Shown one piece after another: positions 3,728 to 27,226 of a stretch of DNA of 50,809 nt (positions are counted from its first letter, which is position 1; each line of letters begins with the position of its first letter). The notes below the pieces were generated by a model. That model did not search any database, was not told where the DNA came from, and worked only from the letters and a program-made list of their open reading frames with translations. A program made the translations under genes and the position numbers. The stretch covers positions 1 through 50,809 of the forward strand of contig JAJZVZ010000014.1 of assembly GCA_021846945.1 (NCBI GenBank). The letters run 5' to 3'. This DNA comes from Acidobacteriota bacterium. Lineage in GTDB: Bacteria; Acidobacteriota; Terriglobia; Terriglobales; Acidobacteriaceae.

Positions 3728-3764
3728 GCATTCGCCCCTTTCTGTCATGTTCCATCCGATGACC

Positions 3765-3793
3765 AACCTAAACACATTCGCTTCCAATGTCAA
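3765..3793 (-). promoter_or_regulatory. Predicted sigma70-type promoter of the DeoR regulator
   Basis: On the minus strand a perfect -35 TTGACA (3793-3788) is followed after exactly 17 bases by TAGGTT (3770-3765). It ends 37 bases upstream of the chosen start at 3727. The AT-rich stretch just upstream (about 3800-3835) could hold the repressor's own operator, but I see no clean repeat. Confidence 0.5.
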
Positions 3794-4092: not shown

Positions 4093-5895
4093 TCAATTCG
4101 GCAGAGACCAGATCTGTTCGAGTTTGCCCTTCTCACACGCCTCCATCTTCAGAGATATATCCTGGGCGCTGCCGGCGCTGAGGCATTGGTGGTCGCGGTC
4201 ATTCACCAGATCTCCGAGCACTGTGTAATGCCAGCGGGCCGAGCCGTTGTGGCAGGACGCCATCACCGGCTTACCAGACGCGACCACCAGGCAATGGTCT
4301 CCCGATTTGAGCGCTCCGGCGGGAGTGATTGTCCAAACCTCGGCTGGCGTGCCCGAACAGTCCTCCAGTTCTCCAGATGACGCCAGGCAACGGGTGTAAT
4401 GGCTCGGCTGATGCGATGCTTCAGCGTTGGACATGGTGATGGCGCCGGTACGCGCCGGAGCGCCGCAGCCGGCGGATGGGTGAATGCGCCAGAGTGCAGT
4501 GTCGTGCGAAGCAACCGTGGTTTGCAGTGTTGAGGCCGCGGGCTGCAGTCTCCCGCTCCAAAGATCCCGTGCATCGAAATTGCACGTCTTGCGTGCTGTA
4601 AATCCAAATTCCGCGGGGTCGACAGTAACCGGAAGCGGTGATTCTCCGCGATTCAGCACAGCGACCGCATAGTCCCCGCCGCTCAGCTTCTTAAAGAGAA
4701 GATCCATCTCCAGGTTGCGGCTCACCAGCGTGGCCATTCGGCCAAGGCGATCCTGGTCGATCGCGATCACGCTCTTGCTGCCGAGAATGGTAATGGCCTG
4801 CGGAGTGAGTTTGCCGACATCCGAACTGAGAATCAGCGGTGCCGACATCATCGACCACAAAGCCAGCTGGCTGCGTGTTTCGGCCATGCTCATGCCATGA
4901 TCTCCGCCGATAATGAAGTCGGCGTCGTCCCAGTTCCCCGGTTTCTGAAATCTTCCTAACTGGAGGTTGTACGTATAGTTCCACATCACACTGGAAAAAC
5001 GCGGGTGATCCGGATCATTGAGGTGAAAGTTGGCAATATCAGAGCCCTCCCGCCATAGCTGGCCGTACGCGCCAACCCATCGCAATACGTCATACCACTC
5101 CGGCTTGCCCTGAAAATAGGCTGGTGCTGACTCTGAAAACACAATTGGCCGGTTTACCTTCTTCAGTGCCGCACTTTCCGCGGCATAAGCCTTGCGGTAG
5201 GAGGCCTCCGGGCTGCTTCCCGAAGGTACATACATCCGGCAGCCATCCAACTTTAAATAGTCAACGCCCCAGGACGCAAAGAGCCGCGCATCCTGATCGA
5301 AATAAGTTTTGCCGCCACCGTTCACTTCACCGCTGCCGGCATCCCCGTCGCAGGTTAGATAGCCCGCATCCTCGTATATCCCGAAGTTCAGCCCCAGCTT
5401 GTGAAGCGCTTCGCCAATCGGCTTCATGCCATTGGGAAAGCGCAGCGGGTCAGCCTGCAGATATCCCTCCTTGTCGCGGTCTTTCTGCATCCAGCAATCA
5501 TCGATGATCACCGTCTTATAACCAGCTGCTGCCAGTCCGGTACGAGCGAGAGCGTTGGCGTTATCCAGAATCGTCTGCGCGGTGTACCCGCATTGATAGT
5601 GGGCCCAATCGTTCCATCCCATTGGAGGCGTCATCGCCAGAGGACGGGATGATCCGGCGGGCGCGGCCAAAGTGCAGGGTGCGATGCCGGTCAGAAAGGC
5701 CAGCAGTATCACACCCACTACAGCCAGGGACAGGCGCCGCGGGCACGAGGATAGCTGGGCGCTTCGCTGGTTGCGCAGGGAAGTCCCGGCCGCAGGCACA
5801 TCCGCTGCGGCTACGCTTGGAGTGATCCTCTTCGCCTTGCTCAAGATCATCTGCCTGTGTTTCTCTAACGAACTGCGTACTTCATTCCCGCGCAT
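4093..5895 (-). CDS. GH27 alpha-galactosidase with C-terminal ricin-type lectin domain
   Basis: A 600-residue secreted or membrane-anchored enzyme hydrolysing terminal alpha-D-galactosyl (or beta-L-arabinopyranosyl) residues with retention. After a ~54-residue polar N-region comes one hydrophobic segment (LSLAVVGVILLAFLTGIAP). The GH27 barrel starts at MTPPMGWNDW; YKTVIIDDCW and YLKLDGC carry the nucleophile Asp (about D217), and WREGSDI the acid/base Asp (about D286). A beta-sandwich follows, then a ~130-residue Cys-rich module ending in a QIWSL element, typical of ricin B-like carbohydrate-binding trefoils. A longer frame begins with TTG at 5919, but ATG 5895 has AGGAG 6 bases upstream. It lies downstream of the sulfatase and a decayed SDR on the same strand and may share their transcript. 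Confidence 0.93.
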   Translation of the reverse strand: MRGNEVRSSLEKHRQMILSKAKRITPSVAAADVPAAGTSLRNQRSAQLSSCPRRLSLAVVGVILLAFLTGIAPCTLAAPAGSSRPLAMTPPMGWNDWAHYQCGYTAQTILDNANALARTGLAAAGYKTVIIDDCWMQKDRDKEGYLQADPLRFPNGMKPIGEALHKLGLNFGIYEDAGYLTCDGDAGSGEVNGGGKTYFDQDARLFASWGVDYLKLDGCRMYVPSGSSPEASYRKAYAAESAALKKVNRPIVFSESAPAYFQGKPEWYDVLRWVGAYGQLWREGSDIANFHLNDPDHPRFSSVMWNYTYNLQLGRFQKPGNWDDADFIIGGDHGMSMAETRSQLALWSMMSAPLILSSDVGKLTPQAITILGSKSVIAIDQDRLGRMATLVSRNLEMDLLFKKLSGGDYAVAVLNRGESPLPVTVDPAEFGFTARKTCNFDARDLWSGRLQPAASTLQTTVASHDTALWRIHPSAGCGAPARTGAITMSNAEASHQPSHYTRCLASSGELEDCSGTPAEVWTITPAGALKSGDHCLVVASGKPVMASCHNGSARWHYTVLGDLVNDRDHQCLSAGSAQDISLKMEACEKGKLEQIWSLPN

Positions 5896-5959
5896 CACGA
5901 GCTCCTGTTCCGGAACCAAATCCGATTCCGCACTGTTCTTAAATCAGTACACCGCGAAA

Positions 5960-6395: not shown

Positions 6396-7955
6396 CTAGC
6401 TCTTTGGGAAAAAGGCGTAGGGCATGCCCCAGAGGTGAGCATCTCGCGGCCTCAGGTACCAGTCCAGCAAAGCATTCATGGTTTCACCGGAAGGTTCTTC
6501 CGAGGCTTGAGGATGAGTCGCGCGGAAAATCTCGAGCATCTGCTTTGAAAACTGCTGCACAGCTTCGGGATGCTGGTCCGCCACGTTCATGAACTCTCCT
6601 GGATCCTTCTGAAGATCGAAGAGCTGAATCGTCTGGCGCGGCAGATTCCCCGTCATGTATCCGTCCAGCCGGAAGCGCTTTCCACTGCAATAGATGAATT
6701 TCCAGCGGTCAGTCCGGATGCAGGCTTCTTCATTTTCAAGATATTCGCTGAAGATTGACTGTCGGGGTTCCGCAACTTTTCCCGTCCTCAGATACCCAGC
6801 TAGACTCTGCCCCTGATTTAACTGGAATGGCTCGGCGCCCAGCATTTCCAGCAGAGTTGGCGGCACATCGACGGATTCCGTGAAATCCTCCACTACCCCG
6901 CCTGCTCGTATATGACCCGGCCAACGCATGATGAGAGGAACCCGAAGGGCGGGATCATAGCAGACGTGTTTCTCAAACCGGCCGTGCTGACCGAGGCTGT
7001 AGCCGTGATCCGCCATGTAGATCACCAGGGTGTCGTTTTCCAGTCCCAATGCTCGCAGTGCAGCCAGGACCGCGCCGACATTGCGATCAAGATAGCGCAC
7101 CGAAGTATAGTATGCAGCGATGATTCCCTGCTTCTGCTCTGGCGTGAGTCCGCGAAAGACAAGCGGAATCTGCTCGGCGTCTTCCGGACCAACTTCCGGC
7201 ACAGGAAATTCGGCAGGATTGAAGTCGTTGCGATCTTCGATAGGGAAATTGAAGGGCGAATGCGGTTCCCGGAAGCTCACCCACAGGGCAAAAGGCTCGT
7301 CCTTATGCTCGCGCATATAGTTCACAGCCTTGTGCATGACCCAGGTGCTCTCCATATTCTCGTACTTGTACCCTTCGGGCAGGGTGTCCGAGTCAAGCCA
7401 GATGCTGGCCGGAACTTCAAAAGGCCGCCATTTCGGCTTGGTGCGGATTCCATTGAACTGCCTTGGGGGGCCTGCCGCAGCCCCCCAGTCCCGTGCCACC
7501 ATGTCCTCGGTCTCCACCGTCACAAAGCCGTGCAGTCCGGGGCGGCCCGGTGTGTTGAAGTGCATCTTTCCAAACACGGCCGGCTCATATCCGCTCGCGG
7601 CCAGTTGGCGCGCGAGAGTTGGCTTGTCTTCGGCAAGCGGAGTGCCGAGAAGGGTAACTCCCGAGGAATGCGGCAATTGGCTGGTTAAAAAGGACTGCCG
7701 GGAGGCTGTGCAGACAGGAGAATTGCAGTAATTGCGCGCAAACCGGGTTCCCTCGGAAGCCAGCCGATCCAGGTTGGGAGTATAGGCTCGGCGATTCCCC
7801 TGCGCACCCAGCACGTAGCCGGCATGGTCGTCCGCCAGGATATAGAGCAGATTCGGTTTGCGATCCGTTGCCCGGGCGACTCGCGGGGCCAACATGGCTG
7901 CGGCCGCTGCGCCGGCTGAACCTAACATTCGCCTTCGAGTAACCATCGGAGTCAC
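6396..7955 (-). CDS. Tat-exported type I sulfatase
   Basis: A 519-residue arylsulfatase-A family enzyme that removes sulfate esters, probably from a sulfated glycan outside the cytoplasm. The N-terminus is a twin-arginine signal (TRRRMLGSAGAAAAAM...ARA). Metal ligands appear in YILADDHAGY. The formylglycine motif reads SPVCTASRQSF (Cys about residue 82), and a second metal site is in VIYMADHGYSLGQHG. GKMHFNTPG and HVCYDPALRVPLIMRWPG are further family signatures. The proline of the usual CxPSR motif is replaced by alanine, which fits the wider [CS]-x-[PA]-x-R motif. GTG 7955 is chosen because GGAGG lies 7 bases upstream; ATG 7970 overlaps that site. Physiological substrate unknown. Confidence 0.92.
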   Translation of the reverse strand: MTPMVTRRRMLGSAGAAAAAMLAPRVARATDRKPNLLYILADDHAGYVLGAQGNRRAYTPNLDRLASEGTRFARNYCNSPVCTASRQSFLTSQLPHSSGVTLLGTPLAEDKPTLARQLAASGYEPAVFGKMHFNTPGRPGLHGFVTVETEDMVARDWGAAAGPPRQFNGIRTKPKWRPFEVPASIWLDSDTLPEGYKYENMESTWVMHKAVNYMREHKDEPFALWVSFREPHSPFNFPIEDRNDFNPAEFPVPEVGPEDAEQIPLVFRGLTPEQKQGIIAAYYTSVRYLDRNVGAVLAALRALGLENDTLVIYMADHGYSLGQHGRFEKHVCYDPALRVPLIMRWPGHIRAGGVVEDFTESVDVPPTLLEMLGAEPFQLNQGQSLAGYLRTGKVAEPRQSIFSEYLENEEACIRTDRWKFIYCSGKRFRLDGYMTGNLPRQTIQLFDLQKDPGEFMNVADQHPEAVQQFSKQMLEIFRATHPQASEEPSGETMNALLDWYLRPRDAHLWGMPYAFFPKS

Positions 7956-8134
7956 TTGCCATCCTCCCATTCGATTTGACCGAGCGCGGTTCCTAATTGC
8001 GCGTCCGACGTCAGAGACAAGTCCATCCTGAACCTGCGACCTCAGATTTCCACCTCAGGGTATCGGAGAAGCCCATAAGGATGCTCGAATGCTACTCACT
8101 CGTGTCGAAATATGTCAATATTCTTTCCTAAATG

Positions 8135-11517: not shown

Positions 11518-11537
11518 CGTTTCCATTGGAGGACTTT

Positions 11538-12350
11538 TTGGGAGATTTTGGAAAAAAGATCAGGCTTAACCGGATTCTGAATGCGCCGGGGCGTGGCACT
11601 CTCGTGGTGGCCTTCGACCACGCCCTAGTGCTGGGGCCCATTCCGGGCACAGAAGACCCTGGCGGTCAGATCGCGCGGTTTATCAGCGCTGGCGTCAATG
11701 CGGTTCTCCTGAACCTGGGACTGATCCAGCGCTACATCCATTGTTTCGCGCCCGCCAACACTCCAGGCATCATCGCGCGCATTGATTGGACGACGGTTTG
11801 GAACTCACTGAGCCAGGGAGACCACGGCGCGCTACGGAGTTGCATGCTGGCTACTCCAGAAGAAGCCCTGCGCCACGGAGCGGACGCGGTCCTCACCTAT
11901 CTGGTGGTAGGCACAGGAGACGCCGATTTTGAGGCCAAGGAGATCGCTCGGAACGCGCAGGTAGCACGCGAGTGTGAGCGCCTCGGCATTCCTCTGATTG
12001 TTGAAACTCTGGCGCGCGGCAGGGGAGTCTCTGATCCTGGGGATCCGAAATGGCTTACGCTGCATACGCGCATTGCTGCGGAGCTTGGCGCCGACTTGAT
12101 TAAGACTGATTACGCTGGGAATGCCGGGAAGATGCGGGGCATCGTGGCAAATTGCCCCGTTCCGATCCTGGTCCTTGGAGGCAGCCGCAATGAAACCGCG
12201 CTGGAGGTCGTACAGGGATGCATGAAGGCGGGCGCGGCCGGCGTGTTCTTCGGGAGAAATGTCTTCCAGTCCGACGATATGGAGGGCTTTCTGGGAAGGG
12301 CCCGCGCGATTCTCAACGACTATCAGGATGCCGTTGTGGCCCGCAATTGA
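11538..12350 (+). CDS. Class I aldolase of the DeoC/LsrF/FbaB superfamily
   Basis: About 270 residues forming a TIM-barrel Schiff-base aldolase. RILNAPGRGTLVVAFDHALVLGP is the family's N-terminal strand. ADAVLTYLVVG, IPLIVETLARGRGV and LGADLIKTDYAGN follow; the last carries the likely Schiff-base Lys. VPILVLGGSRNE and AGAAGVFFGRNVFQ are the phosphate-binding C-terminal strands. Such enzymes cleave ketose phosphates to a triose phosphate plus an aldehyde. The reading frame opens at TTG 11526, but GGAGG at 11528-11532 would then lie inside the gene, so TTG 11538, five bases beyond it, is preferred. First gene of the operon with a mutarotase-like protein, FGGY kinase and aldose isomerase. Exact substrate unknown. 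Confidence 0.85.
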   Translation: MGDFGKKIRLNRILNAPGRGTLVVAFDHALVLGPIPGTEDPGGQIARFISAGVNAVLLNLGLIQRYIHCFAPANTPGIIARIDWTTVWNSLSQGDHGALRSCMLATPEEALRHGADAVLTYLVVGTGDADFEAKEIARNAQVARECERLGIPLIVETLARGRGVSDPGDPKWLTLHTRIAAELGADLIKTDYAGNAGKMRGIVANCPVPILVLGGSRNETALEVVQGCMKAGAAGVFFGRNVFQSDDMEGFLGRARAILNDYQDAVVARN

Positions 12351-12360
12351 GAGGTGTAGC

Positions 12361-13539: not shown

Positions 13540-15057
13540 ATGAGCATTCTCTCCGTCGATGTGGGTTCAAGTCGATGCAAGGCCGCGATCGTCAATGCTG
13601 GCGGCGGGCTGCTCGCCGTTCGCGCGGCTGGCTATCCGACACATCACCCACGCCCCGGATTTGCCGAACTCGATTCGGAAACGCTGGTGGGAGTCATCGG
13701 CAGTCTGTGCCGAGAGCTTTGCGCGCAGATTACTGAGCCAGCCGAGGCGGTCTGCTTCAGTTCTCACGGAGAGACGTTCCTGCCCGTTGACCGCCACGGA
13801 CGTCCGCTCTGTCCGGCGATCCTCAATACGGACACGCGAGCCATTGCCGAAGCCGAATGGTGCGAGCAGCAGTTGGGACGCCAGAAGCTTTTCTCCCTGA
13901 CGGGACAAATCTGTCATGCCATGTATCCGGTCCCAAAACTTCTCTGGTTGAGGAGAAACGCGCAGGAGATTTTCAACGCTGCGAGGCGCTTCCTGGGCGT
14001 GACGGATTACCTTCTCTTCCGGCTCGGGCTGGAGCCGCTGATCGATTACTCCCACGCAGCACGTTTCTTTGCGCTCGATCTGCATGCCCGCGCCTGGTCT
14101 CCTGATGTGCTCGAATTGGTCAAGCTCGCGCCATCGTCACTCTCCACTCCGGTCCAGGCCGGCACGATTGCGGGCCGGCTGAAAGGGAGCGCCGCCGCAT
14201 TTCTGGGTGTCCCCGAGGGAGTGCCGGTTGTGGTCGGGGGTCATGATCAGGTGATAAGCGCGCTGGGAATGGGCGTGACCAACCCCAGAGAAGCAGCCGG
14301 ATCTCTGGGGACGTACGAATGCGTTCTGGTCGTCTCTGATGAACCGCATCTGAACGAGGCGGCACAGCGTGCCAGCCTGAATTCCTATCCGCACGCCATT
14401 GCCGGTAAATACGTCACGATTGCATATTTTCCAGCAGGCATCATGATGAACTGGTTTCACCAGCTTGTTTACGGAACGAGCGAAATAGAGTCTGGGGCCC
14501 ATCTGTACTCACTCGAAGAGGAGGCACCAGAAACGCCGACCGGGCTGTTGGTGACACCACACCTCATCGGCAGTTGCAACCCGGAGTTCGATTCAAGTGC
14601 GAAGGGAGCAATAGCCGGCTTGACTCCAGACAGCAACCGTGGCCACCTGTATCGCGGCATTCTCGAAGGCATCGCTTCGGAATTTGCACTCATGACCGAA
14701 TGCCTGGAGTCGGCGGGATGCGCTTTTGACCGTATCCACATCTCAGGCGGCGGCGCGAAGTCCCGGCTGGGAGTTGCCCTGCGTGCCGCCTTTGCAAACA
14801 AACCGCTGCACGTCATGCAGACCGAAGAGGCAGTCTGCCTGGGCGGGGCCATCCTTGCCAGCGTTGCCGCCGGAATTCATGCTGATATTTCCACTGCAAC
14901 GGCCGCGATGGTTCGTGAGCCGAAGCGCATCTGCCCGGACCCATTGCTAAGGGAACAATATTGCAAACAACTCCAGGACTACCGAACATTCCGCTCTACA
15001 CAGATACAACGCCACCCTCAACAGGCACAGCATCAGCACACAGGAGAGCCGCATTGA
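13540..15057 (+). CDS. FGGY family carbohydrate kinase
   Basis: A 505-residue two-domain ASKHA-fold sugar kinase that phosphorylates a ketose or polyol with ATP. ILSVDVGSSRCKAAI is the phosphate-1 motif. FSSHGETFLPVD and AILNTDTRA lie in the sugar pocket region, VVVGGHDQVISALGMG carries the catalytic Asp, AGSLGTYE is the second phosphate motif, and HISGGGAKSRL is the adenosine loop of the C-terminal domain. Length matches xylulokinase, fuculokinase and LsrK relatives, but subtype cannot be decided by eye. The last ~25 residues are Gln/His-rich and unusual. The stop codon overlaps the likely TTG start of the isomerase, so kinase and isomerase should be made together. Confidence 0.9.
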   Translation: MSILSVDVGSSRCKAAIVNAGGGLLAVRAAGYPTHHPRPGFAELDSETLVGVIGSLCRELCAQITEPAEAVCFSSHGETFLPVDRHGRPLCPAILNTDTRAIAEAEWCEQQLGRQKLFSLTGQICHAMYPVPKLLWLRRNAQEIFNAARRFLGVTDYLLFRLGLEPLIDYSHAARFFALDLHARAWSPDVLELVKLAPSSLSTPVQAGTIAGRLKGSAAAFLGVPEGVPVVVGGHDQVISALGMGVTNPREAAGSLGTYECVLVVSDEPHLNEAAQRASLNSYPHAIAGKYVTIAYFPAGIMMNWFHQLVYGTSEIESGAHLYSLEEEAPETPTGLLVTPHLIGSCNPEFDSSAKGAIAGLTPDSNRGHLYRGILEGIASEFALMTECLESAGCAFDRIHISGGGAKSRLGVALRAAFANKPLHVMQTEEAVCLGGAILASVAAGIHADISTATAAMVREPKRICPDPLLREQYCKQLQDYRTFRSTQIQRHPQQAQHQHTGEPH

Positions 15058-16436
15058 TTCAGCCAACGATTGGTTTCATCGTTTACGGAGTACACAAGGA
15101 CGGATTGCGCGATCCGATGGGTACACCCTTTATCGACAATGCTCTGATCGCCCAAGCGAAGGACGCTCTTAGGAAAGCGGGCCTGAATCTGGTTGAACAC
15201 GACGTCATCGTCGCCAGCAAGCGGGAATCAATCGAAGCCTTGCGCCGCATGAAACAAAATGATGAGATCGACGCGGTGGTGCTCTTCTCGGGAACGTGGG
15301 TGTGGGCTGCGCACATGGTGGGCGCAATTCGCGACTTCGCCAGCAGCGGCAAAGCTGTCCTGCTTTGGACGCATCCCGGCTCGCAGGGATGGCGCCCGGT
15401 TGGCGGTCTGGTACTGCATGGCGGATTACTCGAAATCGGTGTGCTGCACCGCTTCGTCTACGGGAGCATAGATGAACCAGACACGGTAGGCCGCATCGTG
15501 AGCTATGCACAAGCTGCGCATCTCAAGAAATCCTTGAATCTCTCCACGCTGGGCGTATTCGGAGGCCGCGGAATGGGCCAGACCTGCGGCGTTGCTGATC
15601 CCTCCCAGTGGATGCGGGTCTTCGGCATCGACATTGATTCCCGCGACACGACCGATCTGATCCAAACTTCGGAAGAAATCTCTGACGCGGAAATCGAAGC
15701 ACTCGGCCCGCGCCTCCAGCAACTCTTTGGCGCAGCACCCGACCGCAACGCTGTGAACGATCGCTCCATTCGGCTCTATCTGGCGCTCAAAGAGATTGTC
15801 GCCCGCGAGGGATTTGATTTCTACAGCATCCAGTCCTTCCCCGGCCTTGCGGACAACTACGCAGCCAGCTGTTTTGCCCAGAGCATGATGCTGGAAGATG
15901 GATTCGGCACCTCCACCCTGGGAGACTTCAATACCGCGCTCACGGTTTTGCTGCTGACCCGGCTCAGTAAGGAACGCGTCTACTACGGCGACCTCCAGCA
16001 CATCAACCGCAAGACGCGGGAGATCAAGATCATTGGAGACGGCGCATGTCCTCCATCCCTCGCAGGCACGCTCGGTCCTGCCGGATTTGCCGCGCATGGC
16101 ATTCCCACCGAGGGTGAAGCGGGTGGTCTCTCCGTCAGGCTGATCTGCAAAGTAGGCGAGGGCGTCCTCGCCCGACTGGGACGGGTGAACGGTGAATTTC
16201 AAATGGTCATCACGCGCTGTTCCATCTTCGAGCCACCGCTCAGTCAGGTTGAGCAGCGGCTGAACGAATGCGGCATTCCGTTCTGGCCGCATGGCTTCGT
16301 CACTGCACACTGCGACATCGATGCTCTGGTGCAGCATTGGACAAATGAATATGCCTGCCTTGGCTATGGCGAGCATCTTTACCCGGCGCTGGCAGATTTC
16401 TGTGAGTTGACCGGGGTGAAGCCGATTCTGCTTTAA
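15054..16436 (+). CDS. L-fucose/L-arabinose isomerase family protein
   Basis: About 460 residues resembling the FucI/AraA isomerase superfamily, metal-dependent aldose-ketose isomerases. Seen are TIGFIVYGVHKDGLRDP, ALRKAGLNLVEHDVIVAS, AVVLFSGTWVWAAHMV, VLLWTHPGSQGW, LGVFGGRGMGQTCGVADP, a central FYSIQSFPGLADNYAASCFAQSMM, and EGEAGGLSVRLICKVGEG in the C-terminal half. The frame is open from 14961, inside the kinase gene. The likely start is TTG 15054: AGGAGA ends 7 bases before it, homology begins at IQPTIGF, and TTGA overlaps the kinase stop by four bases. With the kinase and aldolase it completes an aldose to ketose to ketose-phosphate to triose-phosphate route. Sugar specificity is not readable. 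Confidence 0.85.
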   Translation: MIQPTIGFIVYGVHKDGLRDPMGTPFIDNALIAQAKDALRKAGLNLVEHDVIVASKRESIEALRRMKQNDEIDAVVLFSGTWVWAAHMVGAIRDFASSGKAVLLWTHPGSQGWRPVGGLVLHGGLLEIGVLHRFVYGSIDEPDTVGRIVSYAQAAHLKKSLNLSTLGVFGGRGMGQTCGVADPSQWMRVFGIDIDSRDTTDLIQTSEEISDAEIEALGPRLQQLFGAAPDRNAVNDRSIRLYLALKEIVAREGFDFYSIQSFPGLADNYAASCFAQSMMLEDGFGTSTLGDFNTALTVLLLTRLSKERVYYGDLQHINRKTREIKIIGDGACPPSLAGTLGPAGFAAHGIPTEGEAGGLSVRLICKVGEGVLARLGRVNGEFQMVITRCSIFEPPLSQVEQRLNECGIPFWPHGFVTAHCDIDALVQHWTNEYACLGYGEHLYPALADFCELTGVKPILL

Positions 16437-16603: not shown

Positions 16604-18571
16604 ATGTTTGCTGACAAGACTATGACAAAGAACCCGGGTAGATTTCTCTACGATTCGCTCAGATCGATCGAGGCAATCCTGCAGCGATTCCAACAGTGCA
16701 CCATTACGGTCTTCGGGGATTTTTGTGTCGACGCCTATTGGGACCTTTGGGACGGAGAAAGTGAATTTTCGGTGGAGACAGGTCATCCAGTCCAGCGGGT
16801 CCGCGCGCAACGCTATTCTCTAGGCGGCGCCGGAAGCGTAATCGCGAATCTCGCGGCTATGGGGGTTGCATCCGTGCGTCCTGTCGGCGTAACCGGAAGC
16901 GACCTCTTTGGACAAAAGATGCGCGCTCTGCTGGCAGATTGCGACGCGAACACAGAAGGCCTGCTGATGGATGACTCCTGGCAGACGATGGTGTATGCCA
17001 AGCCCTATCTTGGCGAAAAGGAGCAGTCCCGCATCGACTTCGGCGCGTTCAATCCTATATCCGCCGACCTTCAAACCTCATTGATGGGTGCGTTGCGGAA
17101 GGCCGTGCAGGAAAGCGATGCCGTCATCTTGAATCAGCAGGTGCCGGGAGGCATATCTTCGCCCGAGGTCATCGGTCAGATTAACGAAATCATCCGGGAT
17201 AACCCCGGCACACTCTTTCTGGTCGATGCGCGTCATCATCCCGAGAAATATCAGGGCGCGGTGCTCAAGCTCAACATGAGCGAGGCGGCACGACTGCTGG
17301 GCGAAGAAGCCCAGGACATCACAACGGAGGCTCGCGCGCGGGATTATGCGATGCGTATTCATCGGCAGATTTCCCGGCCGGTCTTTCTTACGCGGGGTGA
17401 GTCTGGATTGGCCGTAGCCGCGGATGACCAGGTAACGCTGATTCCTGGACTGCAAATCATGGAGCGCACCGACAGCGTCGGCGCCGGTGACGCTGTGGTT
17501 GCCGCACTGGCGGCCTCGCTGGCGGTCCACGCGCCACCGGTTGAAGCCGGGACGCTGGCCAATCTGGCCGCCATGGTCACGGTGAAGAAACTCCGTATGA
17601 CAGGAACGGCCACCGCCGGAGAGATTCTGGCGGCGGCCCGCGAACCGAATTATGTCTTCCGCCCAGAGCTGGCGGAATCCCAGCGTGCGGCAAAGTACCT
17701 GCCTAACACGGAGATCGAAGTTGTTGGTCATCTGCCCACCGGCCTTGACATCCAGCACTGCATCTTCGATCACGACGGCACGCTATCCACCTTGCGCGAA
17801 GGTTGGGAGCAGATCATGGAACCGATGATGATGCGGGCCATCCTCGGCAAATTCCACGACACTGTGGATCAAACGACATTCAACCGCATCCGTGAAGTGG
17901 TGCGGCAGTTCATCGACCGCACCACCGGCATTCAGACTCTGGCACAGATGAAGGGACTTGCCGACCTGGTGCGGCAGTGCGGCTTCGTCCCTGAATCGGA
18001 AGTGCTCGACGAGCACGGCTACAAGCACATCTTCAATGTCGCCCTGCTGGCCGCAGTGAACAAACGCACCGAGAAGCTCCGTTCAGGCGAGCTGCATTCC
18101 ACTGACTTTCAAATCAAGAATGCTGCGCTCCTGCTGGAGGAGTTGCATCGGCGAGGCGTCAAGCTCTATCTTGCCAGCGGAACTGATCAAGCAGATGTGA
18201 TTGCCGAAGCGGAAGCCATGGGCTACGCGCATTATTTTGAAGGAAGAATCTTTGGTTCCGTGGGCGATCTGAACGTGGAATCGAAAAAGCTGGTTTTGGA
18301 ACGTATTATCGCGGAGCACAATCTCTCCGGCCATCATTTCGCGACCTTCGGCGACGGACCAGTGGAGATGCGCGAAACGCACAGGCGTGGAGGCCTCTGC
18401 GTAGGAGTCGCCAGCGACGAACTGCGCCGCTTCGGACTGAACGCTTCCAAGCGAAAACGGCTCATCCGTGCCGGAGCTGACCTGGTCATCCCCGACTACA
18501 GCCAGTTGAAGCCGCTGCTGTCTGTGTTGCACCTGGCCGGGAAAGCTCGACCGCGCACCAGCAACGACTGA
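16604..18571 (+). CDS. Fused PfkB-type sugar kinase and HAD phosphatase (HldE1-like plus GmhB-like role)
   Basis: A 655-residue two-enzyme fusion. Residues ~32-345 are a PfkB/ribokinase kinase: ITVFGDFCVDAYW, SLGGAGSVIANLAAMGV, PVFLTRGESGLAV and DSVGAGDAVVAA with the catalytic base about D296. Residues ~385-640 are a HAD phosphatase with an inserted helical cap: FDHDGT (nucleophile about D389, D391), YLASGTD (about S525), Lys about 561 and FGDGPVEMRE (about D584). Context (nucleotidyltransferase, HldD and GmhA follow) suggests the kinase makes heptose 1,7-bisphosphate and the HAD removes the 7-phosphate. The classic HldE fusion is kinase plus nucleotidyltransferase, so this pairing is unusual. 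The kinase part is divergent from canonical HldE (ETGHPVQRV where HldE has PEAPVPV), so specificity is inferred. AGGA lies ~11 bases before ATG 16604. Confidence 0.88.
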   Translation: MFADKTMTKNPGRFLYDSLRSIEAILQRFQQCTITVFGDFCVDAYWDLWDGESEFSVETGHPVQRVRAQRYSLGGAGSVIANLAAMGVASVRPVGVTGSDLFGQKMRALLADCDANTEGLLMDDSWQTMVYAKPYLGEKEQSRIDFGAFNPISADLQTSLMGALRKAVQESDAVILNQQVPGGISSPEVIGQINEIIRDNPGTLFLVDARHHPEKYQGAVLKLNMSEAARLLGEEAQDITTEARARDYAMRIHRQISRPVFLTRGESGLAVAADDQVTLIPGLQIMERTDSVGAGDAVVAALAASLAVHAPPVEAGTLANLAAMVTVKKLRMTGTATAGEILAAAREPNYVFRPELAESQRAAKYLPNTEIEVVGHLPTGLDIQHCIFDHDGTLSTLREGWEQIMEPMMMRAILGKFHDTVDQTTFNRIREVVRQFIDRTTGIQTLAQMKGLADLVRQCGFVPESEVLDEHGYKHIFNVALLAAVNKRTEKLRSGELHSTDFQIKNAALLLEELHRRGVKLYLASGTDQADVIAEAEAMGYAHYFEGRIFGSVGDLNVESKKLVLERIIAEHNLSGHHFATFGDGPVEMRETHRRGGLCVGVASDELRRFGLNASKRKRLIRAGADLVIPDYSQLKPLLSVLHLAGKARPRTSND

Positions 18572-18578
18572 GGAAACA

Positions 18579-19082
18579 ATGATGAAAATCGCAGAGCCTA
18601 AAATACTTTCCATTGCCGCCATGCGCGCCGAGCGCGACCGGCTGGCCGCCGAGGGCAAAGAACTCGTCTTCACCAACGGCTGCTTCGACATTCTGCATCG
18701 CGGCCATGTTACTTATCTGACCTTTGCGCGTAATCAGGGCGACGCCCTTGTCGTGGCTCTGAACACCGATGCCTCAGTCAAGATGAACAAGGGAGACGGA
18801 CGGCCGATCAACAACGAGGAAGATCGTGCCTATGTCCTCGGCTCGTTGCGCGCCGTGGACTACATTGTTTATTTCTCCGACAAAGAACCGAAGGACATCA
18901 TCGCGCAGATTCTGCCGCAGGTGCTGGTGAAGGGCAAGGACTGGGCGCATTATGTCAGCGGGCGCGAGGTCGTAGAAGCCAACGGCGGCCGGGTGATTCT
19001 TGCCGACATGGTCCCCAACCGATCCACAACCGGTACCATCGAGCGGGTTCTCGCGGTCTACGGGCAGAAAGGAAAAGAATGA
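18579..19082 (+). CDS. hldC: Heptose 1-phosphate adenylyltransferase-like nucleotidyltransferase (HldE C-domain type)
   Basis: A 167-residue cytidylyltransferase-fold enzyme matching the stand-alone second half of HldE (RfaE2). VFTNGCFDILHRGHVTYL has the HxGH nucleotide-binding motif at about 40-43. DALVVALNTDASVK and NEEDRAYVLGSLRAVDYIVYFSD follow, and VPNRSTTGTIERV is the ISSTxxI-like motif. It would transfer AMP from ATP to D-glycero-beta-D-manno-heptose 1-phosphate. It begins 8 bases after the kinase-HAD fusion with GAGGA upstream; either of two adjacent ATGs (18579, 18582) could start it. Its stop overlaps the hldD start by 4 bases. The symbol follows the context and is less certain than the family. 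Confidence 0.88.
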   Translation: MMKIAEPKILSIAAMRAERDRLAAEGKELVFTNGCFDILHRGHVTYLTFARNQGDALVVALNTDASVKMNKGDGRPINNEEDRAYVLGSLRAVDYIVYFSDKEPKDIIAQILPQVLVKGKDWAHYVSGREVVEANGGRVILADMVPNRSTTGTIERVLAVYGQKGKE

Positions 19083-20053
19083 GTAAACCGATTATCGTTA
19101 CAGGCGCCGCTGGATTCATTGGGCGCAATCTGGTGGCGAGCCTCAACAGCCGCGGTCACCATGAGCTGATTCTCGCTGACTCCCTGGGCAAAGACGATAA
19201 GTGGCGTAACCTGCGCGGCCTGCGTTATGAGGACATTCTTTCTCCCGCGGCATTGATGGAAAGAATCGAGCGTGGGCAGTTCGCGGACGCAGAGGCTATC
19301 CTGCACATGGGCGCGTGCAGCTCTACCACCGAGAGTGACGCTGATTACCTGCTGGAGAACAATTACCGCTATACACGCCGCCTGTGCGAATTCAGCCTGA
19401 AGCACAACATCCGCTTCATCTATGCCTCAAGTGCTGCCACCTACGGCGATGGCAGCCAGGGTTATTCCGATGACGACGCGGCAACGGCGCGGCTGCTTCC
19501 GCTGAACATGTACGGCTACTCCAAACACATGTTCGACCTGTGGGCGCTCAAGGTTGGGGCCCTGAGCTGCATCGCCGGATTGAAATACTTCAATGTGTTC
19601 GGTCCTTACGAAGATCACAAGGGCGACATGAAGTCTGTCGTGGCGAAGAGCTACCGTCAGATCCGGGAGCAAGGTAAGGTCCGGCTTTTCAAGAGCTATT
19701 CCGCACAGTACGCTGACGGCGAGCAAATGCGCGACTTCATCTACGTGCGCGACGCCGTGGAAGTCACGCTGTGGTTCCTCGAAAAGGGGAGCGCAAGCGG
19801 TCTGTTTAACTGCGGAACCGGCCGGGCCCGCACCTGGAAAGATCTGGCGGCCGCGGTCTTCCGCGCGATGAACCGGCCGGTCGAGATCGAGTTCATCGAG
19901 ATGCCCGAGACTCTGCGCAGAAAGTACCAGTACTTCACCGAAGCCAATATGCAGAAACTGCGCGCTGCCGGCTACACCCGTCCCTTCACGAGCCTCGAAG
20001 ATGCGGTGCAGGATTATGTCGCCGATTACCTGTCCAGGCAGGAAGAAGCATGA
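19079..20053 (+). CDS. hldD: ADP-L-glycero-D-manno-heptose 6-epimerase
   Basis: A 324-residue extended SDR matching HldD/RfaD, which converts ADP-D-glycero- to ADP-L-glycero-D-manno-heptose, the inner-core LPS precursor. IIVTGAAGFIGRNLV at residues 5-19 binds NADP. ILHMGACSSTTESD and YRYTRRLCEF are family-specific. IRFIYASSAATYGDG leads to the catalytic YGYSKHMFD (YxxxK), and YFNVFGPYEDHKGDMKSVV plus RDFIYVRDAVEV are diagnostic of this subfamily. Length matches E. coli HldD. ATGA overlaps join it to the genes on either side, so the operon is translationally coupled here. Confidence 0.95.
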   Translation: MSKPIIVTGAAGFIGRNLVASLNSRGHHELILADSLGKDDKWRNLRGLRYEDILSPAALMERIERGQFADAEAILHMGACSSTTESDADYLLENNYRYTRRLCEFSLKHNIRFIYASSAATYGDGSQGYSDDDAATARLLPLNMYGYSKHMFDLWALKVGALSCIAGLKYFNVFGPYEDHKGDMKSVVAKSYRQIREQGKVRLFKSYSAQYADGEQMRDFIYVRDAVEVTLWFLEKGSASGLFNCGTGRARTWKDLAAAVFRAMNRPVEIEFIEMPETLRRKYQYFTEANMQKLRAAGYTRPFTSLEDAVQDYVADYLSRQEEA

Positions 20054-20622
20054 GCAGCATATTGACAAACAATATCGAGAGCATGCGCGCTCTTCTGGCA
20101 CAGGTTCAGACTCTCGACGCAAAAGTGCAGTTGGCCGCCGATGCGCTGGCCGATGCGCTGGTAAACGGCCATAAGCTACTGGCCTGCGGCAACGGCGGCA
20201 GCGCCGCGGATGCAGCACATCTGACCACGGAATTTGTTTGCCGCTTCGATCAGGATCGAAGACCGTACCCCGCTATCGCGCTTACCACCCACGGTGGCGA
20301 TCTGACCGCGATCGGGAACGATTATGACTTTCATGACTTGTTCGCGCGCCAGGTGCAGGCTTTCGGAAATCAGGGTGACGTTTTATGCGCCTTCACGACC
20401 AGCGGACAAAGCGAGAACGTGCGGCGCGCCCTGATTGCAGCCAAGGAGCGGCAGATGCGAAGCATCGCTTTTCTTGGTAAAGACGGCGGCCGGTGTCTCG
20501 GCCTGGCCGATATCGATCTGCTGGTGAAGAGCCAGACGACAGCACGGATTCAGGAGATGCATAAGCTGCTGTTGCATACCGTTTGCGAGATCGTCGAGTC
20601 GCGACTTTTGCAGGCGGGTTGA
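20050..20622 (+). CDS. gmhA: Sedoheptulose 7-phosphate isomerase
   Basis: A 190-residue SIS-domain protein of GmhA type, which isomerises sedoheptulose 7-phosphate to D-glycero-D-manno-heptose 7-phosphate, the first ADP-heptose step. LLACGNGGSAADAAHLTTEFVCRF near residue 40-65 is the characteristic phosphosugar loop, followed by TTHGGDLTAIGNDYDFHDLFARQV, LCAFTTSGQSENVRRAL, IAFLGKDGG and the C-terminal QEMHKLLLHTVCEIVE helix that completes the active site in the tetramer. DiaA is a related alternative, but the operon partners favour GmhA. Start ATG 20050 overlaps the hldD stop by four bases. Confidence 0.93.
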   Translation: MSSILTNNIESMRALLAQVQTLDAKVQLAADALADALVNGHKLLACGNGGSAADAAHLTTEFVCRFDQDRRPYPAIALTTHGGDLTAIGNDYDFHDLFARQVQAFGNQGDVLCAFTTSGQSENVRRALIAAKERQMRSIAFLGKDGGRCLGLADIDLLVKSQTTARIQEMHKLLLHTVCEIVESRLLQAG

Positions 20623-20723: not shown

Positions 20724-22184
20724 ATGAATCGTTACGTGGCGCGAGGAGCGGCGGTGGGTGCACTCGGGGGTCTGCTCTTCGGCTTCGATACGGCAGTCAT
20801 CTCCGGAACCACTTCCTCCCTCGTGCAGGCATTCAGCCTTTCGCCGCGCGAGCTTGGATTTACGGTCGCGATCGCCTTGTGCGGAACTGTCTTCGGCGCA
20901 ATCACGGCCGGGCCACTTGAGAGCCGTTATGGCGGGCGCGACATGCTGCGCGTTATGGCTCTCTTGTATTTGCTTTCGGCGATCGGCTGCGCTTTCGCTC
21001 CAAACTGGACCGACCTGCTGGCTGCGCGCTTTTTGGGCGGCATCGGCATTGGCGGCTCGTCGGTGCTGGGACCGGTCTACATCGCCGAAATCTCCCCCAC
21101 CCGGCTGCGCGGCCGCCTGGTCGGTATGTTCCAGATCAACATTGTTCTCGGGGTTCTGTGCGCCTATCTTTCGAACTACCTGATAGCGCGCGCCAACTTC
21201 GGAGCGGCAAATTGGCGATGGGACTTCGGCATGGCCCTGTGCCCTGCGCTGCTTTTCATTCTCATGCTCTTCGGTATCCCCAACAGCCCACGCTGGCTGG
21301 CCGCAAAGGGCCGGAATATCGAAGCCATGGATGCGCTCGCATTGATGGGTTCGGAGGATGCAGCGGGGGACCTGAACAAAATCACGGCGTCGATCCTGGA
21401 GGATTCGCTCGACTCGAAAGAATCTCTCTTCCAGTGGAAGTACCGGACGCCGATCTTTCTGGCTGTTTCGATTGCAATGTTCAACCAACTCACCGGGATC
21501 AACGCGATCACTTATTACCTGAACGATATCTTCGCCAGCGCCGGATTCAACCAGCTCTCCGGCAATCTTCAGGCGGTTGCCTTTGGCGCCATGAATCTCT
21601 TCGCCACACTCATCGGCATGTCGCTGATCGACAAACTAGGCCGCAAGACTCTACTCCTGATTGGATCGGTGGGGACCATGTTTTCTCTGGCGGGCGTGGC
21701 GCTGGTGTTCGCAATGAAGGCTCACCGTGACTGGCTACTGCCGCTGCTGGTGATTTATATCTTCTTCTTCGCCGGCTCGCAAGGAAGTGTGATCTGGGTC
21801 TATCTCAGCGAGGTATTTCCGACGCGGGTACGAGGCAAGGGACAGTCGCTGGGGTGCAGTACTCATTGGATCATCAATGCGCTCATTTCCGCTTCATTCC
21901 CGATCGTAGCGAAGTCATCGGGAGCCATTCCATTTGCGTTTTTCGGCTGCATGATGGCGGTTCAGTTTGTGGTGGTTAAGGCCTTCTACCCCGAAACCAA
22001 GAACGTTTCGCTCGAGGAGATACAGCACCTTTTGGGGGTTGAGGCTTCTCCCATGCGGCAAACGCAACTGCAGTTGCGTTTGCCGGAAGCCAAAGAGCCA
22101 GGCAATGGCCTTGACGGCAAGCGTGCGCTTGAACAGGCCATTGCGAATAGGAAGCGCAGTATCCGAACCAAAGGAGGAATTTGA
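20724..22184 (+). CDS. MFS sugar:proton symporter (sugar porter family)
   Basis: A 486-residue transporter with 12 predicted membrane helices. Sugar-porter signatures are GGLLFGFDTAVISGT (helix 1), GPLESRYGGRDMLRV (loop 2-3 GRR-like motif), FLGGIGIGGSSVLGPVYIAEISPTRLRGRLVG, GIPNSPRWLAAKGR (PESPR-like, loop 6-7), QLTGINAITYYLNDIF (helix 7 QLSGINA-like), DKLGRKTLLLIG and YPETKNVSLEEI at the C-terminal end. It is similar in layout to XylE/GalP relatives. An extended ~45-residue charged tail follows. It lies about 100 bases after gmhA and its stop overlaps the dehydrogenase start by one base. A sugar importer in a heptose operon is unexpected. Confidence 0.93.
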   Translation: MNRYVARGAAVGALGGLLFGFDTAVISGTTSSLVQAFSLSPRELGFTVAIALCGTVFGAITAGPLESRYGGRDMLRVMALLYLLSAIGCAFAPNWTDLLAARFLGGIGIGGSSVLGPVYIAEISPTRLRGRLVGMFQINIVLGVLCAYLSNYLIARANFGAANWRWDFGMALCPALLFILMLFGIPNSPRWLAAKGRNIEAMDALALMGSEDAAGDLNKITASILEDSLDSKESLFQWKYRTPIFLAVSIAMFNQLTGINAITYYLNDIFASAGFNQLSGNLQAVAFGAMNLFATLIGMSLIDKLGRKTLLLIGSVGTMFSLAGVALVFAMKAHRDWLLPLLVIYIFFFAGSQGSVIWVYLSEVFPTRVRGKGQSLGCSTHWIINALISASFPIVAKSSGAIPFAFFGCMMAVQFVVVKAFYPETKNVSLEEIQHLLGVEASPMRQTQLQLRLPEAKEPGNGLDGKRALEQAIANRKRSIRTKGGI

Positions 22185-23662
22185 TGCTCGCGACTTTAAG
22201 AGAATTTGCCCACCAGTTCGTACACACTCCTCAATTGCATTGCATCGGCGGTAACTTCGTGCCCAGCCGCAGCGGCGCCGTACAAGAGGTATTCGATCCC
22301 TCTACTGGCGCCGTCCTCACAAGCGTTGCCATGGGTTCCGATCACGAAGTGAACCTTGCAGTGGCGGCGGCTCAGGCCTCCTTCCCTGCCTGGTCCAGGA
22401 CCCCTCCTGTAGAAAGGGCAGTGATTCTGCACCGGGTTGCCGACGCACTCGAAAGGCACAAAGACGACCTTGTACAAGTCGAATCGCTCGATGTAGGCAA
22501 AGCGATCACAGCAACGGAAGGCTTTGATATCCCGTTCGGTATTGCCTGTCTGCGCTATTTTGCCGATCTGGTGCAAAACCTTGTGATCGATGTTCCCCAC
22601 GCTCTGCCCAATATTGAGGCCCGCACGCACCGTATTCCATACGGCGTTTGCGGCTTCATCTTTCCCTGGAATTTTCCCTACGACCTGCTCCTCTGGAATG
22701 TCGTGCCCGCACTGGCCGCGGGAAATACTGTGGTCATTAAACCGTCGGAGCTGACACCACTCAGTACATTGCTGGTGACCCGATTGGCCCATGAGGCTGG
22801 CTTGCCCGACGGCGTAATGAACGTCGTGGTTGGCGACGGCGCTGCCGGGCAGGCGCTAGCAATGCACCCGGGGATTAAACGAATGAGCTTTACGGGATCG
22901 CCGAAAGTGGGAAAGTTGATCGGCGAAATCTGTGGCAGGAATCTTGTTCCGTTGAAGCTTGAACTCGGCGGAAAGGGCGCGGCTGTGGTCTTCGACGATG
23001 TTGACATGGATACAACAGCAGCCAAGCTGGCGAATGCAATCACCTTCAACACAGGACAGGTCTGCTGCACGGCCACTCGCTGGATCCTTCACGAGGAAAT
23101 CCATGACAGCTTGCTGCAAAAAGCGATTGCGATTTTGAATAGCACCCGAATCGGTCCTGCTCTCGATAGAGAGACTCAGATGGGCCCCCTGGTATCAGAA
23201 ACTCATCACAAGCGGGTTTCGAACCATCTGGAATTGGGCAAGGCCGAGGGCGCAGAAGTTATCTTCGAGGCTCATGCAGTCAAGCCCGATGGATTCGAGC
23301 GCGGTTACTACATCGGCCCAAGCCTTTTGACCGGCGATCCAGACAACATCTGCTGCCGCGAAGAGATTTTTGGCCCCAGCGCATACGTTCTGAAATTTCG
23401 TGACGAAGATGAAGCAGTCAAACTGGTCAACCGGCTGCCGTATGGACTTGCGAATAGCGTTTGGAGTAGCGATCTGGACCGCGCCGGCAGGGTTGCCGAG
23501 CAGTTGATTGCCGGCAACAGTTGGGTTAACGCGCACAATGTCTTCGCGTACGGCTTGCCATATCGCGCCGTAAACCTCAGCGGCATGGGAGGCGGTGTGA
23601 ACAGCCCGGATTGCCTGTTGGATTATCTGCGTCCGCAGACAATTGCACGCCCGCTGGCATGA
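22184..23662 (+). CDS. NAD(P)-dependent aldehyde dehydrogenase
   Basis: A 492-residue ALDH-superfamily enzyme oxidising an aldehyde to its acid. IFPWNFPYDLLLWNVVPALAAGNTVVIKPSE is the coenzyme-binding stretch. MSFTGSPKVGK is the dinucleotide loop, LELGGKGAAVVF has the general base Glu (about 260) and FNTGQVCCTATR the nucleophilic Cys (about 294). EEIFGPSAYVLKF and GYYIGPSLL follow. The second Cys next to the nucleophile is often seen in the family. Betaine-aldehyde, lactaldehyde or glycolaldehyde dehydrogenases are all possible. ATG 22184 shares one base with the MFS stop and has GGAGG 6 bases upstream, so transport and oxidation appear coupled. Confidence 0.93.
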   Translation: MLATLREFAHQFVHTPQLHCIGGNFVPSRSGAVQEVFDPSTGAVLTSVAMGSDHEVNLAVAAAQASFPAWSRTPPVERAVILHRVADALERHKDDLVQVESLDVGKAITATEGFDIPFGIACLRYFADLVQNLVIDVPHALPNIEARTHRIPYGVCGFIFPWNFPYDLLLWNVVPALAAGNTVVIKPSELTPLSTLLVTRLAHEAGLPDGVMNVVVGDGAAGQALAMHPGIKRMSFTGSPKVGKLIGEICGRNLVPLKLELGGKGAAVVFDDVDMDTTAAKLANAITFNTGQVCCTATRWILHEEIHDSLLQKAIAILNSTRIGPALDRETQMGPLVSETHHKRVSNHLELGKAEGAEVIFEAHAVKPDGFERGYYIGPSLLTGDPDNICCREEIFGPSAYVLKFRDEDEAVKLVNRLPYGLANSVWSSDLDRAGRVAEQLIAGNSWVNAHNVFAYGLPYRAVNLSGMGGGVNSPDCLLDYLRPQTIARPLA

Positions 23663-26389: not shown

Positions 26390-27226
26390 TCAGTTTGAGC
26401 AGCAACTCGATCCACGGCACGCGCGGCCCGGTTTGGTGGCGCGTATGAAGGCGCTCATCAGCTTGTCGCCGGCCAGGGGCGCGATGGCATCCACATCCAC
26501 CCCCGCGGATTCGAGAAGCTGGCGCGCATCTTCGATGTTGTACACGCGGGTGGGTTCGAGCGAGATGGCAGTGAAACCGGCCTGCGCAAGCCTGGCCATC
26601 TCCTCCTTCTCTTCGAGCGCGCCGGCGATGCAGCCCACCCAGAGCGCCATGCTGCGGCGTACCGGCTCGGGCACTTCGCCGCGCGCGACGACGTCTGACA
26701 CCGCGAAGCGACCGCCCGCCTTGAGCACGCGATAAGCCTCGCGCAACACGCGATCCTTGTCGGCGGAGAGATTGATGACGCAATTGGAGATGACAACATC
26801 AACGGCATTGTCGGGCAGCGGAATCTTTTCAATTTCGCCTTTTAGGAACTCGACGTTTTCGATGTCCGCTTTGCGCTGATTTTCGCGGGCGAGGGCGAGC
26901 ATGTCGTCCGTCATGTCGAGGCCGTAAGCCTTGCCGGCGGGCCCGACGCGGCGTGCGGAAAGCAGCACGTCGATGCCGCCACCGGAGCTGAGATCCAACG
27001 CGGTTTCGCCGGGCTTCAATTGGATGAGCGCTGTCGGATTGCCGCAGCCCAGCGAAGCCAGCATCGCGCCTTCAGGCAGGCCGCTCTTTTCGGCCTCACC
27101 GTAGAGGTCCTTGGTGACCGGATCGCAACAAGTGAAGACCGGATTGCAGCAGGCTCCGGAGTTTGTCTGCCGCACATGGCGCGCCGCCGCGCCGTACTTT
27201 TCCTGCACCAGTATCTTTGTGTCCAT
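26390..27226 (-). CDS. arsM: Arsenite S-adenosylmethionine methyltransferase
   Basis: A 278-residue class I SAM methyltransferase of ArsM type, methylating As(III) to volatile or less reactive species. The N-terminal CCNPVFTCCDPVTKDLYG region holds Cys residues, LGCGNPTALIQLKPGETALDLSSGGGIDVLLSA contains SAM motif I, YGLDMTDDMLALAREN is motif II, and VDVVISNCVINLSADKDRVLREAYRVLKAGGR carries the conserved arsenic-binding Cys. VGCIAGAL contains the next conserved Cys. The C-terminal CRGSSCCSN is Cys-rich as in many ArsM. It is divergent from arsR across an 88-base gap and upstream of a dead arsC. Confidence 0.94.
   Translation of the reverse strand: MDTKILVQEKYGAAARHVRQTNSGACCNPVFTCCDPVTKDLYGEAEKSGLPEGAMLASLGCGNPTALIQLKPGETALDLSSGGGIDVLLSARRVGPAGKAYGLDMTDDMLALARENQRKADIENVEFLKGEIEKIPLPDNAVDVVISNCVINLSADKDRVLREAYRVLKAGGRFAVSDVVARGEVPEPVRRSMALWVGCIAGALEEKEEMARLAQAGFTAISLEPTRVYNIEDARQLLESAGVDVDAIAPLAGDKLMSAFIRATKPGRACRGSSCCSN

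Follow-up and report, generated by a model that had tools for sequence, protein, structure and literature searches.

Genes of the locus

The subject of this study is a group of four genes on the forward strand of a 50,809-nucleotide (nt) stretch of DNA, hereafter the window, which makes up positions 1 to 50,809 of contig JAJZVZ010000014.1 from an Acidobacteriota bacterium of the family Acidobacteriaceae (assembly GCA_021846945.1). In order, the genes encode a protein in which a PfkB-type kinase is fused to a HAD phosphatase, a stand-alone RfaE2-type nucleotidyltransferase, the epimerase HldD, and a GmhA-type SIS isomerase (Table 1). ADP-heptose is commonly seen as a precursor of the lipopolysaccharide (LPS) core, and its makers are GmhA, HldE, GmhB, and HldD. 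A preliminary description of the locus had claimed a coupled operon with a full ADP-heptose set, in which the fusion takes the place of HldE and GmhB. The operon was borne out: only 7 nt separate the fusion gene from that of RfaE2, with GAGGAAACA preceding the RfaE2 ATG, ATGA overlaps join the RfaE2 gene to hldD and hldD to gmhA, and the same four-gene order is repeated at a second locus (L141). By homology only, the four gene products would cover all five steps of ADP-heptose synthesis. The HldD of the window exceeds its equivalog cut-off, RfaE2 falls marginally under the TIGR02199 cut-off and has that model as its best match all the same, and GmhA scores below the cut-off of TIGR00441.

Table 1. 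Features of the window: the four-gene cassette, the domains of the fusion, and neighboring genes
Feature	Position	Strand	Basis and remarks
Kinase–HAD fusion gene (PfkB kinase + HAD phosphatase)	16604..18571	+	655 amino acids; open reading frame, domain search, alignment, AlphaFold2
Kinase domain, RfaE1/HldA-like	16679..17617	+	residues ~26–338; GAGD, residues 293–296; fold neighbor HldA 4e84
HAD domain with helical C1 cap	17702..18568	+	residues 367–655; D389/D391, S525, K561, GDGPVE 583–588
RfaE2-type nucleotidyltransferase, stand-alone	18579..19082	+	TIGR02199, 174.5 bits (cut-off 181.5)
HldD, ADP-glyceromanno-heptose 6-epimerase	19079..20053	+	TIGR02197, 411.9 bits (cut-off 274.6)
GmhA-type SIS isomerase	20050..20622	+	TIGR00441, 180.5 bits (cut-off 209.45); PRK13936, 210.5 (cut-off 276)
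DhnA/DeoC-type aldolase	11526..12350	+	Pfam/NCBIfam
FGGY carbohydrate kinase	13540..15057	+	Pfam/NCBIfam
Probable sugar isomerase	14961..16436	+	weak: AraA central domain PF24856, 27.8 bits; SftI NF048012, 67.2 (cut-off 700)
MFS sugar porter	20724..22184	+	PF00083, 342.6 bits
Aldehyde dehydrogenase	22181..23662	+	Pfam/NCBIfam
Alpha-galactosidase with ricin-type lectin domain	4093..5919	-	PF16499, PF00652
Sulfatase	6396..7970	-	PF00884

The kinase half of the fusion

A single chain carries both a PfkB match (99.4 bits) and a HAD "Hydrolase" match (43.9 bits) in Pfam, with the motif sets of both halves intact. An AlphaFold2 model, based on 42 aligned fusions, folds it into two confident domains (mean predicted local distance difference test score, pLDDT, 91.1; predicted template modeling score 0.88). 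The best NCBIfam model for the kinase is RfaE1 (TIGR02198), which scores 154.9 bits, or 157.4 in a search of the host genome, against a cut-off of 345, while the best non-heptose model reaches 58.9 bits. The closest solved structure by sequence is HldA (E 8.3e-18), and the best fold match is HldA of Burkholderia cenocepacia (4e84; Z 36.4, root-mean-square deviation (rmsd) 2.3 over 309 residues), the next other enzyme being at Z 31.6.

We compared the residues of 79 fusions with those of 10 canonical RfaE1 proteins from the host's family, with six split kinases, encoded apart from the HAD, alongside. Residues G38, D39, D43, S56, E58, G74, N82, D100, T128, R143, D145, D208, and N224, together with the GAGD motif, which is invariant in the 42 aligned fusions, are common to the fusions and the canonical proteins. 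Nine positions (54, 59, 133, 140, 147, 177, 179, 326, and 340) are conserved within both groups and switched between them, for example from R in RfaE1 to E54 and from E to G147; at least 96% of the fusions agree at each, gaps in cut rows being scored as misses. The fusion residue at 54, 59, 133, 140, and 179 is present in all six split kinases. In a quick tree with canonical RfaE1 from the host's family and a distant outgroup with long branches, a branch with support 87 set 26 fusions apart, another (94) the split kinases, and a third (100) the 10 canonical RfaE1 proteins; four other PfkB proteins of the host were separate from all of these. The kinase, which had been called divergent, thus belongs to a clade beside canonical RfaE1 and not inside it.

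The nine switched positions mean that another substrate could be meant. The fusion might work on a different sugar phosphate derived from sugar use (a hexose or another heptose), so that a phosphate moves from its last carbon to C1 before the product is taken up by RfaE2/HldD or by a protein of the GSU2086 family, whose genes often neighbor the fusion (see below). The switches are of a specificity type, five of them are found in every split kinase, and the separate clade points the same way, whereas the nearest fold, HldA, argues for heptose. We consider this alternative unlikely, if a serious one.

The HAD half of the fusion

The catalytic residues of the HAD, including the two aspartates of its DxDGT motif, are intact in the window and invariant in the 42 aligned fusions. 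When this half was modeled alone, its mean pLDDT was 87.1. In the model, helices inserted between motifs I and II form a C1 cap, so that the HAD core, the four motifs, and the helical cap between motifs I and II place the protein in HAD class I. Its fold neighbors are C1-cap HADs of the phosphoglycolate phosphatase, beta-phosphoglucomutase, CbbY, and phosphonatase kinds (Z 16–19), with 3mc1 at Z 19.1 (rmsd 3.0 over 212 residues). As judged from the modeled fold, these matches place the HAD in its subclass and name no substrate. No GmhB model was among the eight NCBIfam families listed for the fusion (E 0.001), and GmhB was not among the 50 fold matches listed for the HAD, which excludes nothing; by sequence, no solved relative of the HAD was found at E 0.1. 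The earlier assignment to a subfamily other than that of GmhB, with an inserted cap, therefore stands.

Repair or broad functions are common among such C1-capped HADs. The fused HAD could be a housecleaning or regulatory enzyme that clears a side product or limits the kinase, in which case the two halves would not catalyze successive steps. We think this quite improbable; the invariance of the catalytic residues speaks against it, as do the gene order around unfused HADs and the distribution of GmhB, described below.

Size and distribution of the family

With ten aligned HADs as query, a search across species genomes confirmed at least 455 relatives. The best 80 of these, ranked by similarity to the HAD of the window, supplied the loci that we analyzed. 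HAD and kinase lie in one open reading frame (ORF) at 77 of these loci, in one of which (L066) the kinase is spread over two frames; the other three (L051, L056, and L093) are cut by a contig start. Such constancy means that the fusion is due to neither chance nor assembly error, and its existence, as first described, is real. Carriers belong to Acidobacteriota, Bacteroidota, Planctomycetota, Verrucomicrobiota, and other phyla, and include the named strains Mariniphaga anaerophila DSM 26910 and Draconibacterium aestuarii Z1-6. The fusions nearest to that of the window (L037, L038, and L116) are from Acidobacteria or Acidobacteriaceae.

Of 247 genomes sampled evenly from the host's phylum, 10 have the HAD, namely the host, one further fusion genome (G211), and eight genomes in which it is unfused. 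Seven of these eight keep the kinase gene close by even so, in the order HAD, GSU2086, kinase, which tells against a mere housecleaning role. The same split order, followed by a SIS gene, is found on a Chloroflexota plasmid. A phage origin was rejected, the HAD being without a match in 50,697 phage records. A plasmid origin was rejected likewise: four of 72,556 plasmid records match the fusion, and only one covers at least 80% of it, with kinase and HAD there as separate genes.

Two sets of partner genes

The fusion is found beside GSU2086 more often than beside RfaE2 and HldD. Among the 80 loci, some of them on short contigs, a GSU2086-family gene neighbors it at 43 (within 600 bp at 42), RfaE2 plus HldD at eight (L037, L038, L053, L056, L060, L063, L070, and L074), and neither at 29. 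We compared whole genomes for 50 of the 80 loci and the host: none of the nine with the RfaE2/HldD arrangement has GSU2086, compared with 36 of the 42 others (Fisher p 1.6e-6, ancestry ignored). On a tree of 79 fusions, which leaves out L056 and other cut loci, the arrangement requires four changes, at least three of them on well supported branches. A swap of the two partner sets was not significant in an ancestry-aware tree test, which had only three to four independent pairs. In the phylum sample, GSU2086 occurs in nine of the 10 HAD genomes versus 68 of the 237 others (p 1.5e-4), and the exception is the host, where GSU2086 had no match at E 1e-15.

The weak NCBIfam relatives of GSU2086, all below cut-off, are deoxyhypusine synthase, a homospermidine enzyme, and ornithine cyclodeaminase, which are NAD enzymes; a search by sequence gave no credible solved relative (best E 0.95). 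In 16 selected GSU2086 stretches, drawn from 77 genomes, a GmhA-type gene adjoins in four, a fifth holds a SIS gene plus a single frame that combines RfaE2-like and RfaE1-like parts, and at the remaining 11 none of the queried heptose genes was found, so that the tie between GSU2086 and heptose is only partial. At one locus (L171, G005:C162, ~3664–5800), a stop-free frame that is RfaE2-like and then RfaE1-like, the reverse of HldE, adjoins SIS and GSU2086 genes.

GmhA-type genes occur at 25 of the 80 fusion loci, within 600 bp at 10, and are found with both sets of partners. The presence of HldD in one arm and of GmhA-type genes in both argues for heptose. It also weighs against a different sugar phosphate, since the HldD match is at equivalog level and epimerization at C6 is sensible for a heptose only; the frequency of GSU2086 as a neighbor, on the other hand, would fit that alternative. 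The eight fusions of the compared set that lie next to RfaE2/HldD carry the common residue at all nine switched kinase positions, with the sole exception of L074 at 340, and we infer that the kinase–HAD pair probably yields one product for both arms.

One genome (G317) holds two cassettes on different contigs, fusion–RfaE2–HldD at L037 and the full four-gene order at L141; a GH38-like match was seen on both cassette stretches (contigs C78 and C17, loci L142/L037 and L141). GmhA was not found beside the cassette at L037, L053, L060, L063, L070, or L074, and L038 is cut. When set against the sampled canonical genes, which came from the host's family plus, for RfaE2, two Opitutae genomes, the cassette RfaE2 proteins of Acidobacteriota, Planctomycetota, and Verrucomicrobiota group in a single clade, and so do the HldD proteins (support 100 each); one row of these trees (L142_C) is a mislabeled control, being the same gene as L037_F. 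The cassette therefore looks inherited and exchanged as a unit, and a fresh recruitment of RfaE2 and HldD from local genes in each phylum was unsupported.

Genomic setting of the fusion

Upstream of the cassette in the window lie genes for an aldolase, an FGGY kinase, and a probable sugar isomerase, and downstream come those for a sugar porter and an aldehyde dehydrogenase; a DeoR regulator, an alpha-galactosidase, and a sulfatase lie farther upstream. At L141 the flanks encode a GH38 alpha-mannosidase, a GH78 rhamnosidase, and a LacI regulator. We tabulated gene families at 83 fusion loci (the 80 plus L028, L141, and the window) and at 16 canonical RfaE1 loci from genomes of the host's family. 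AGE 2-epimerases were found at 25 fusion loci, SSS transporters at 15, LacI-type regulators at 14, ROK proteins at 13, and GH38 and GH92 at 12 each, versus none of any at the canonical loci; 54 of the 83 match at least one sugar-use query, and 37 match AGE, GH38, or GH92. Conversely, LpxK and the 3-deoxy-D-manno-octulosonic acid (Kdo) transferase were each found at none of the 83 fusion loci versus nine of the 16 canonical ones, and the glycosyltransferase family GT9 at two versus 15. The table tilts towards its own result, because fusion loci supplied the sugar-use queries (two of them taken from the flank of the window) and the LPS queries were drawn from a single canonical locus plus the GT9 of the host.

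A Pfam scan, which is free of this bias, concurs. It covered 117 of 122 neighbors, the nearest two genes on each side of 36 fusion loci picked over the tree, and was led by LacI-type sensor domains (seven), GntR (six), and 2-epimerases (six); glycosyltransferases of group 1 numbered three, and neither LpxK nor Kdo transferase was among the 25 Pfam families listed. The 130 ORFs of the control loci gave LpxK nine times, Kdo transferase eight, GT9 five, and glycosyltransferases of group 1 four times.

The epimerase, ROK, GH38, and GH92 genes, and the isomerase, FGGY kinase, porter, and dehydrogenase around the cassette of the window, would suit a substrate other than the expected heptose, and the mannosidase-rich loci together with the kinase switches leave room for such a sugar. 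A sulfoquinovose pathway was rejected for the upstream genes, the isomerase scoring 67 bits against a cut-off of 700.

Some features of the window stand apart from these questions. Between 11300 and 24100, promoter- and terminator-like sites were not above shuffled controls. An ORF inside the sugar operon (12259–13533, +) has no Pfam or NCBIfam match, and 110–118-bit matches to it adjoin the split-kinase loci L035 and L036. Two long ORFs (24027–25610, +, and 2–1798, +) are without a Pfam match, and 26390–27226 on the minus strand encodes what we take, from reading its sequence, to be an arsenite methyltransferase.

The host genome and a possible supply of LPS heptose

The host assembly (5.3 Mb, 339 contigs) is 99.11% complete. 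In it, the fusion is the best RfaE1 match (157.4 bits), the runner-up scoring 74.5; no further RfaE1 or RfaE2 was found besides the cassette (RfaE2 search at E 1e-15), nor was an hldE elsewhere in these contigs. Of the two canonical genes named in the preliminary description, gmhB fared differently. A 196-amino acid HAD of the GmhB/HisB type is encoded on contig 177 (TIGR00213, 100.6 bits, cut-off 149.6; PRK08942, 154.2, cut-off 178), back to back with an ORF that is presumably ABC transporter-like, as read from its sequence. This gene weakens the case for a replacement of GmhB by the fusion in the host genome, and the refutation put forward in the preliminary description applies by half at most. 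In the eight other cassette genomes, which are metagenome-assembled and possibly incomplete, GmhB (E 1e-10) was matched in five and not in three (L056, L060, and L063); the three without a match count in favor of the two-step reading. The separate GmhB-like HAD in the host would favor a housecleaning role of the fused HAD, and the three genomes without a GmhB match tell against that role.

The cassette could simply be the host's supply of ADP-heptose for the LPS core, acquired after loss of the RfaE1/RfaE2 pair usual in its family, where RfaE1 was found in 68 of 80 genomes and RfaE2 in 68, with 19 above each cut-off. This would agree with the lack of any other RfaE1 or RfaE2 in the host and with its retention of one GT9 (contig 304), whose best model is heptosyltransferase I (173 bits, cut-off 185.3). 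However, a genome of the same genus (G007) has a GT9, and RfaE1, RfaE2, and the fusion HAD were not found in it, so that GT9 is no pointer to a supply by the cassette. (Nine of the 80 family genomes, G007, G248, G249, G259, G261, G279, G280, G294, and G307, have a heptosyltransferase-like GT9, partial in G249, with neither RfaE1 at E 1e-25 nor RfaE2 at E 1e-15.) The two cassettes of G317 and the want of LpxK and Kdo transferase at fusion loci also count against it. Searched at E 1e-20, RfaE2 occurs once in four of the eight other cassette genomes and twice in those of L037, L038, L053, and L070, and the second copy of L038, within a 507-amino acid frame of HldE size, is a further point of this kind. 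We regard a plain LPS supply as improbable, and rate LPS heptose as the sole purpose of the cassette lower than the preliminary description implied.

Proposed function and relation to known systems

We give about an even chance to the proposal, suggested by homology, that the four genes make up an ADP-heptose cassette complete in itself, with the fusion catalyzing two consecutive steps on a heptose phosphate. GmhA would isomerize sedoheptulose 7-phosphate, yielding heptose 7-phosphate, the PfkB half would phosphorylate C1 to give heptose 1,7-bisphosphate, and the HAD half of the same chain would strip the 7-phosphate to leave heptose 1-phosphate, which RfaE2 would adenylate before HldD epimerizes the ADP-heptose at C6. 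The kinase–HAD pair is a widespread unit, seemingly serving carbohydrate-utilization loci and not the housekeeping LPS-core pathway. The data show the gene content with its families, motifs, and fold neighbors, the repeat of the gene order in a second genome, and the clades apart that RfaE2 and HldD of the cassette form relative to the sampled canonical genes; we infer the substrate of each domain, the action of the HAD on the product of the kinase, and the biological purpose of the pair. More tentatively, and with odds that we put somewhat under even, the fusion would represent an undescribed heptose-phosphate branch outside LPS, in sugar-use loci of many phyla, whose heptose 1-phosphate (or like product) is completed by interchangeable arms, RfaE2 plus HldD to give ADP-heptose, or GSU2086.

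Several observations weigh against the heptose cassette. The kinase is far under the RfaE1 cut-off, and the fusion kinases appear as a clade beside canonical RfaE1; RfaE2 and GmhA of the window score below their own cut-offs; 72 of the 80 fusion loci are without RfaE2/HldD nearby; GmhA adjoins the cassette only in the window and at L141, with a 63-bit match further on at L056; and a GmhB-like HAD, albeit below cut-off, is present elsewhere in the host, as is a GmhB match in five of the eight other cassette genomes.

The fusion is a variant on the known ADP-heptose pathway. Its kinase half resembles HldE/HldA in fold and core residues, and the next gene encodes an RfaE2-type nucleotidyltransferase; it differs in being joined to a HAD and not to RfaE2, which is stand-alone, in its separate clade, score, and nine switches, and in loci that are not LPS-like. 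The distinction from HldE drawn at the outset is supported. With GmhB it shares the HAD superfamily and the 7-phosphatase step expected in the pathway, but the fused HAD has a C1 cap and GmhB is of the small HAD-IIIA type, like the GmhB-like protein of the host. MtlD, a mannitol-1-phosphate dehydrogenase/phosphatase among the fold neighbors, likewise combines a sugar-phosphate enzyme with a HAD of similar fold, although the partner there is a dehydrogenase and the sugar another one. A Geobacter mutant screen annotates GSU2085 as hldE and GSU2087 as gmhA, and places GSU2086, there a hypothetical protein, in a sugar biosynthesis operon (PMC5585712). These consecutive locus numbers of Geobacter sulfurreducens likewise unite a heptose-type kinase, GSU2086, and GmhA; in that source the kinase is annotated as HldE, whereas the window has RfaE2 and HldD in a genome without GSU2086. 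We recognized no description of a kinase–HAD fusion in the titles and abstract openings of the open-licence literature; subscription journals lay mostly outside this search, which is no proof that the fusion is unpublished.

The interpretation first given to the locus is therefore partly supported, and goes less far than the data: the fusion is a large family, found beside GSU2086 more often than beside RfaE2/HldD, in loci that resemble carbohydrate use and not LPS synthesis. If the proposed steps are right, a single fused kinase–phosphatase would carry heptose 7-phosphate all the way to heptose 1-phosphate, and could prevent the bisphosphate intermediate from escaping. Two carriers are named strains, M. 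anaerophila and D. aestuarii, which makes the fusion testable. The sugar-use loci, the alternative RfaE2/HldD or GSU2086 partners, and the spread over many phyla point to a heptose metabolism outside LPS, and the family offers a handle on the role of the uncharacterized GSU2086.

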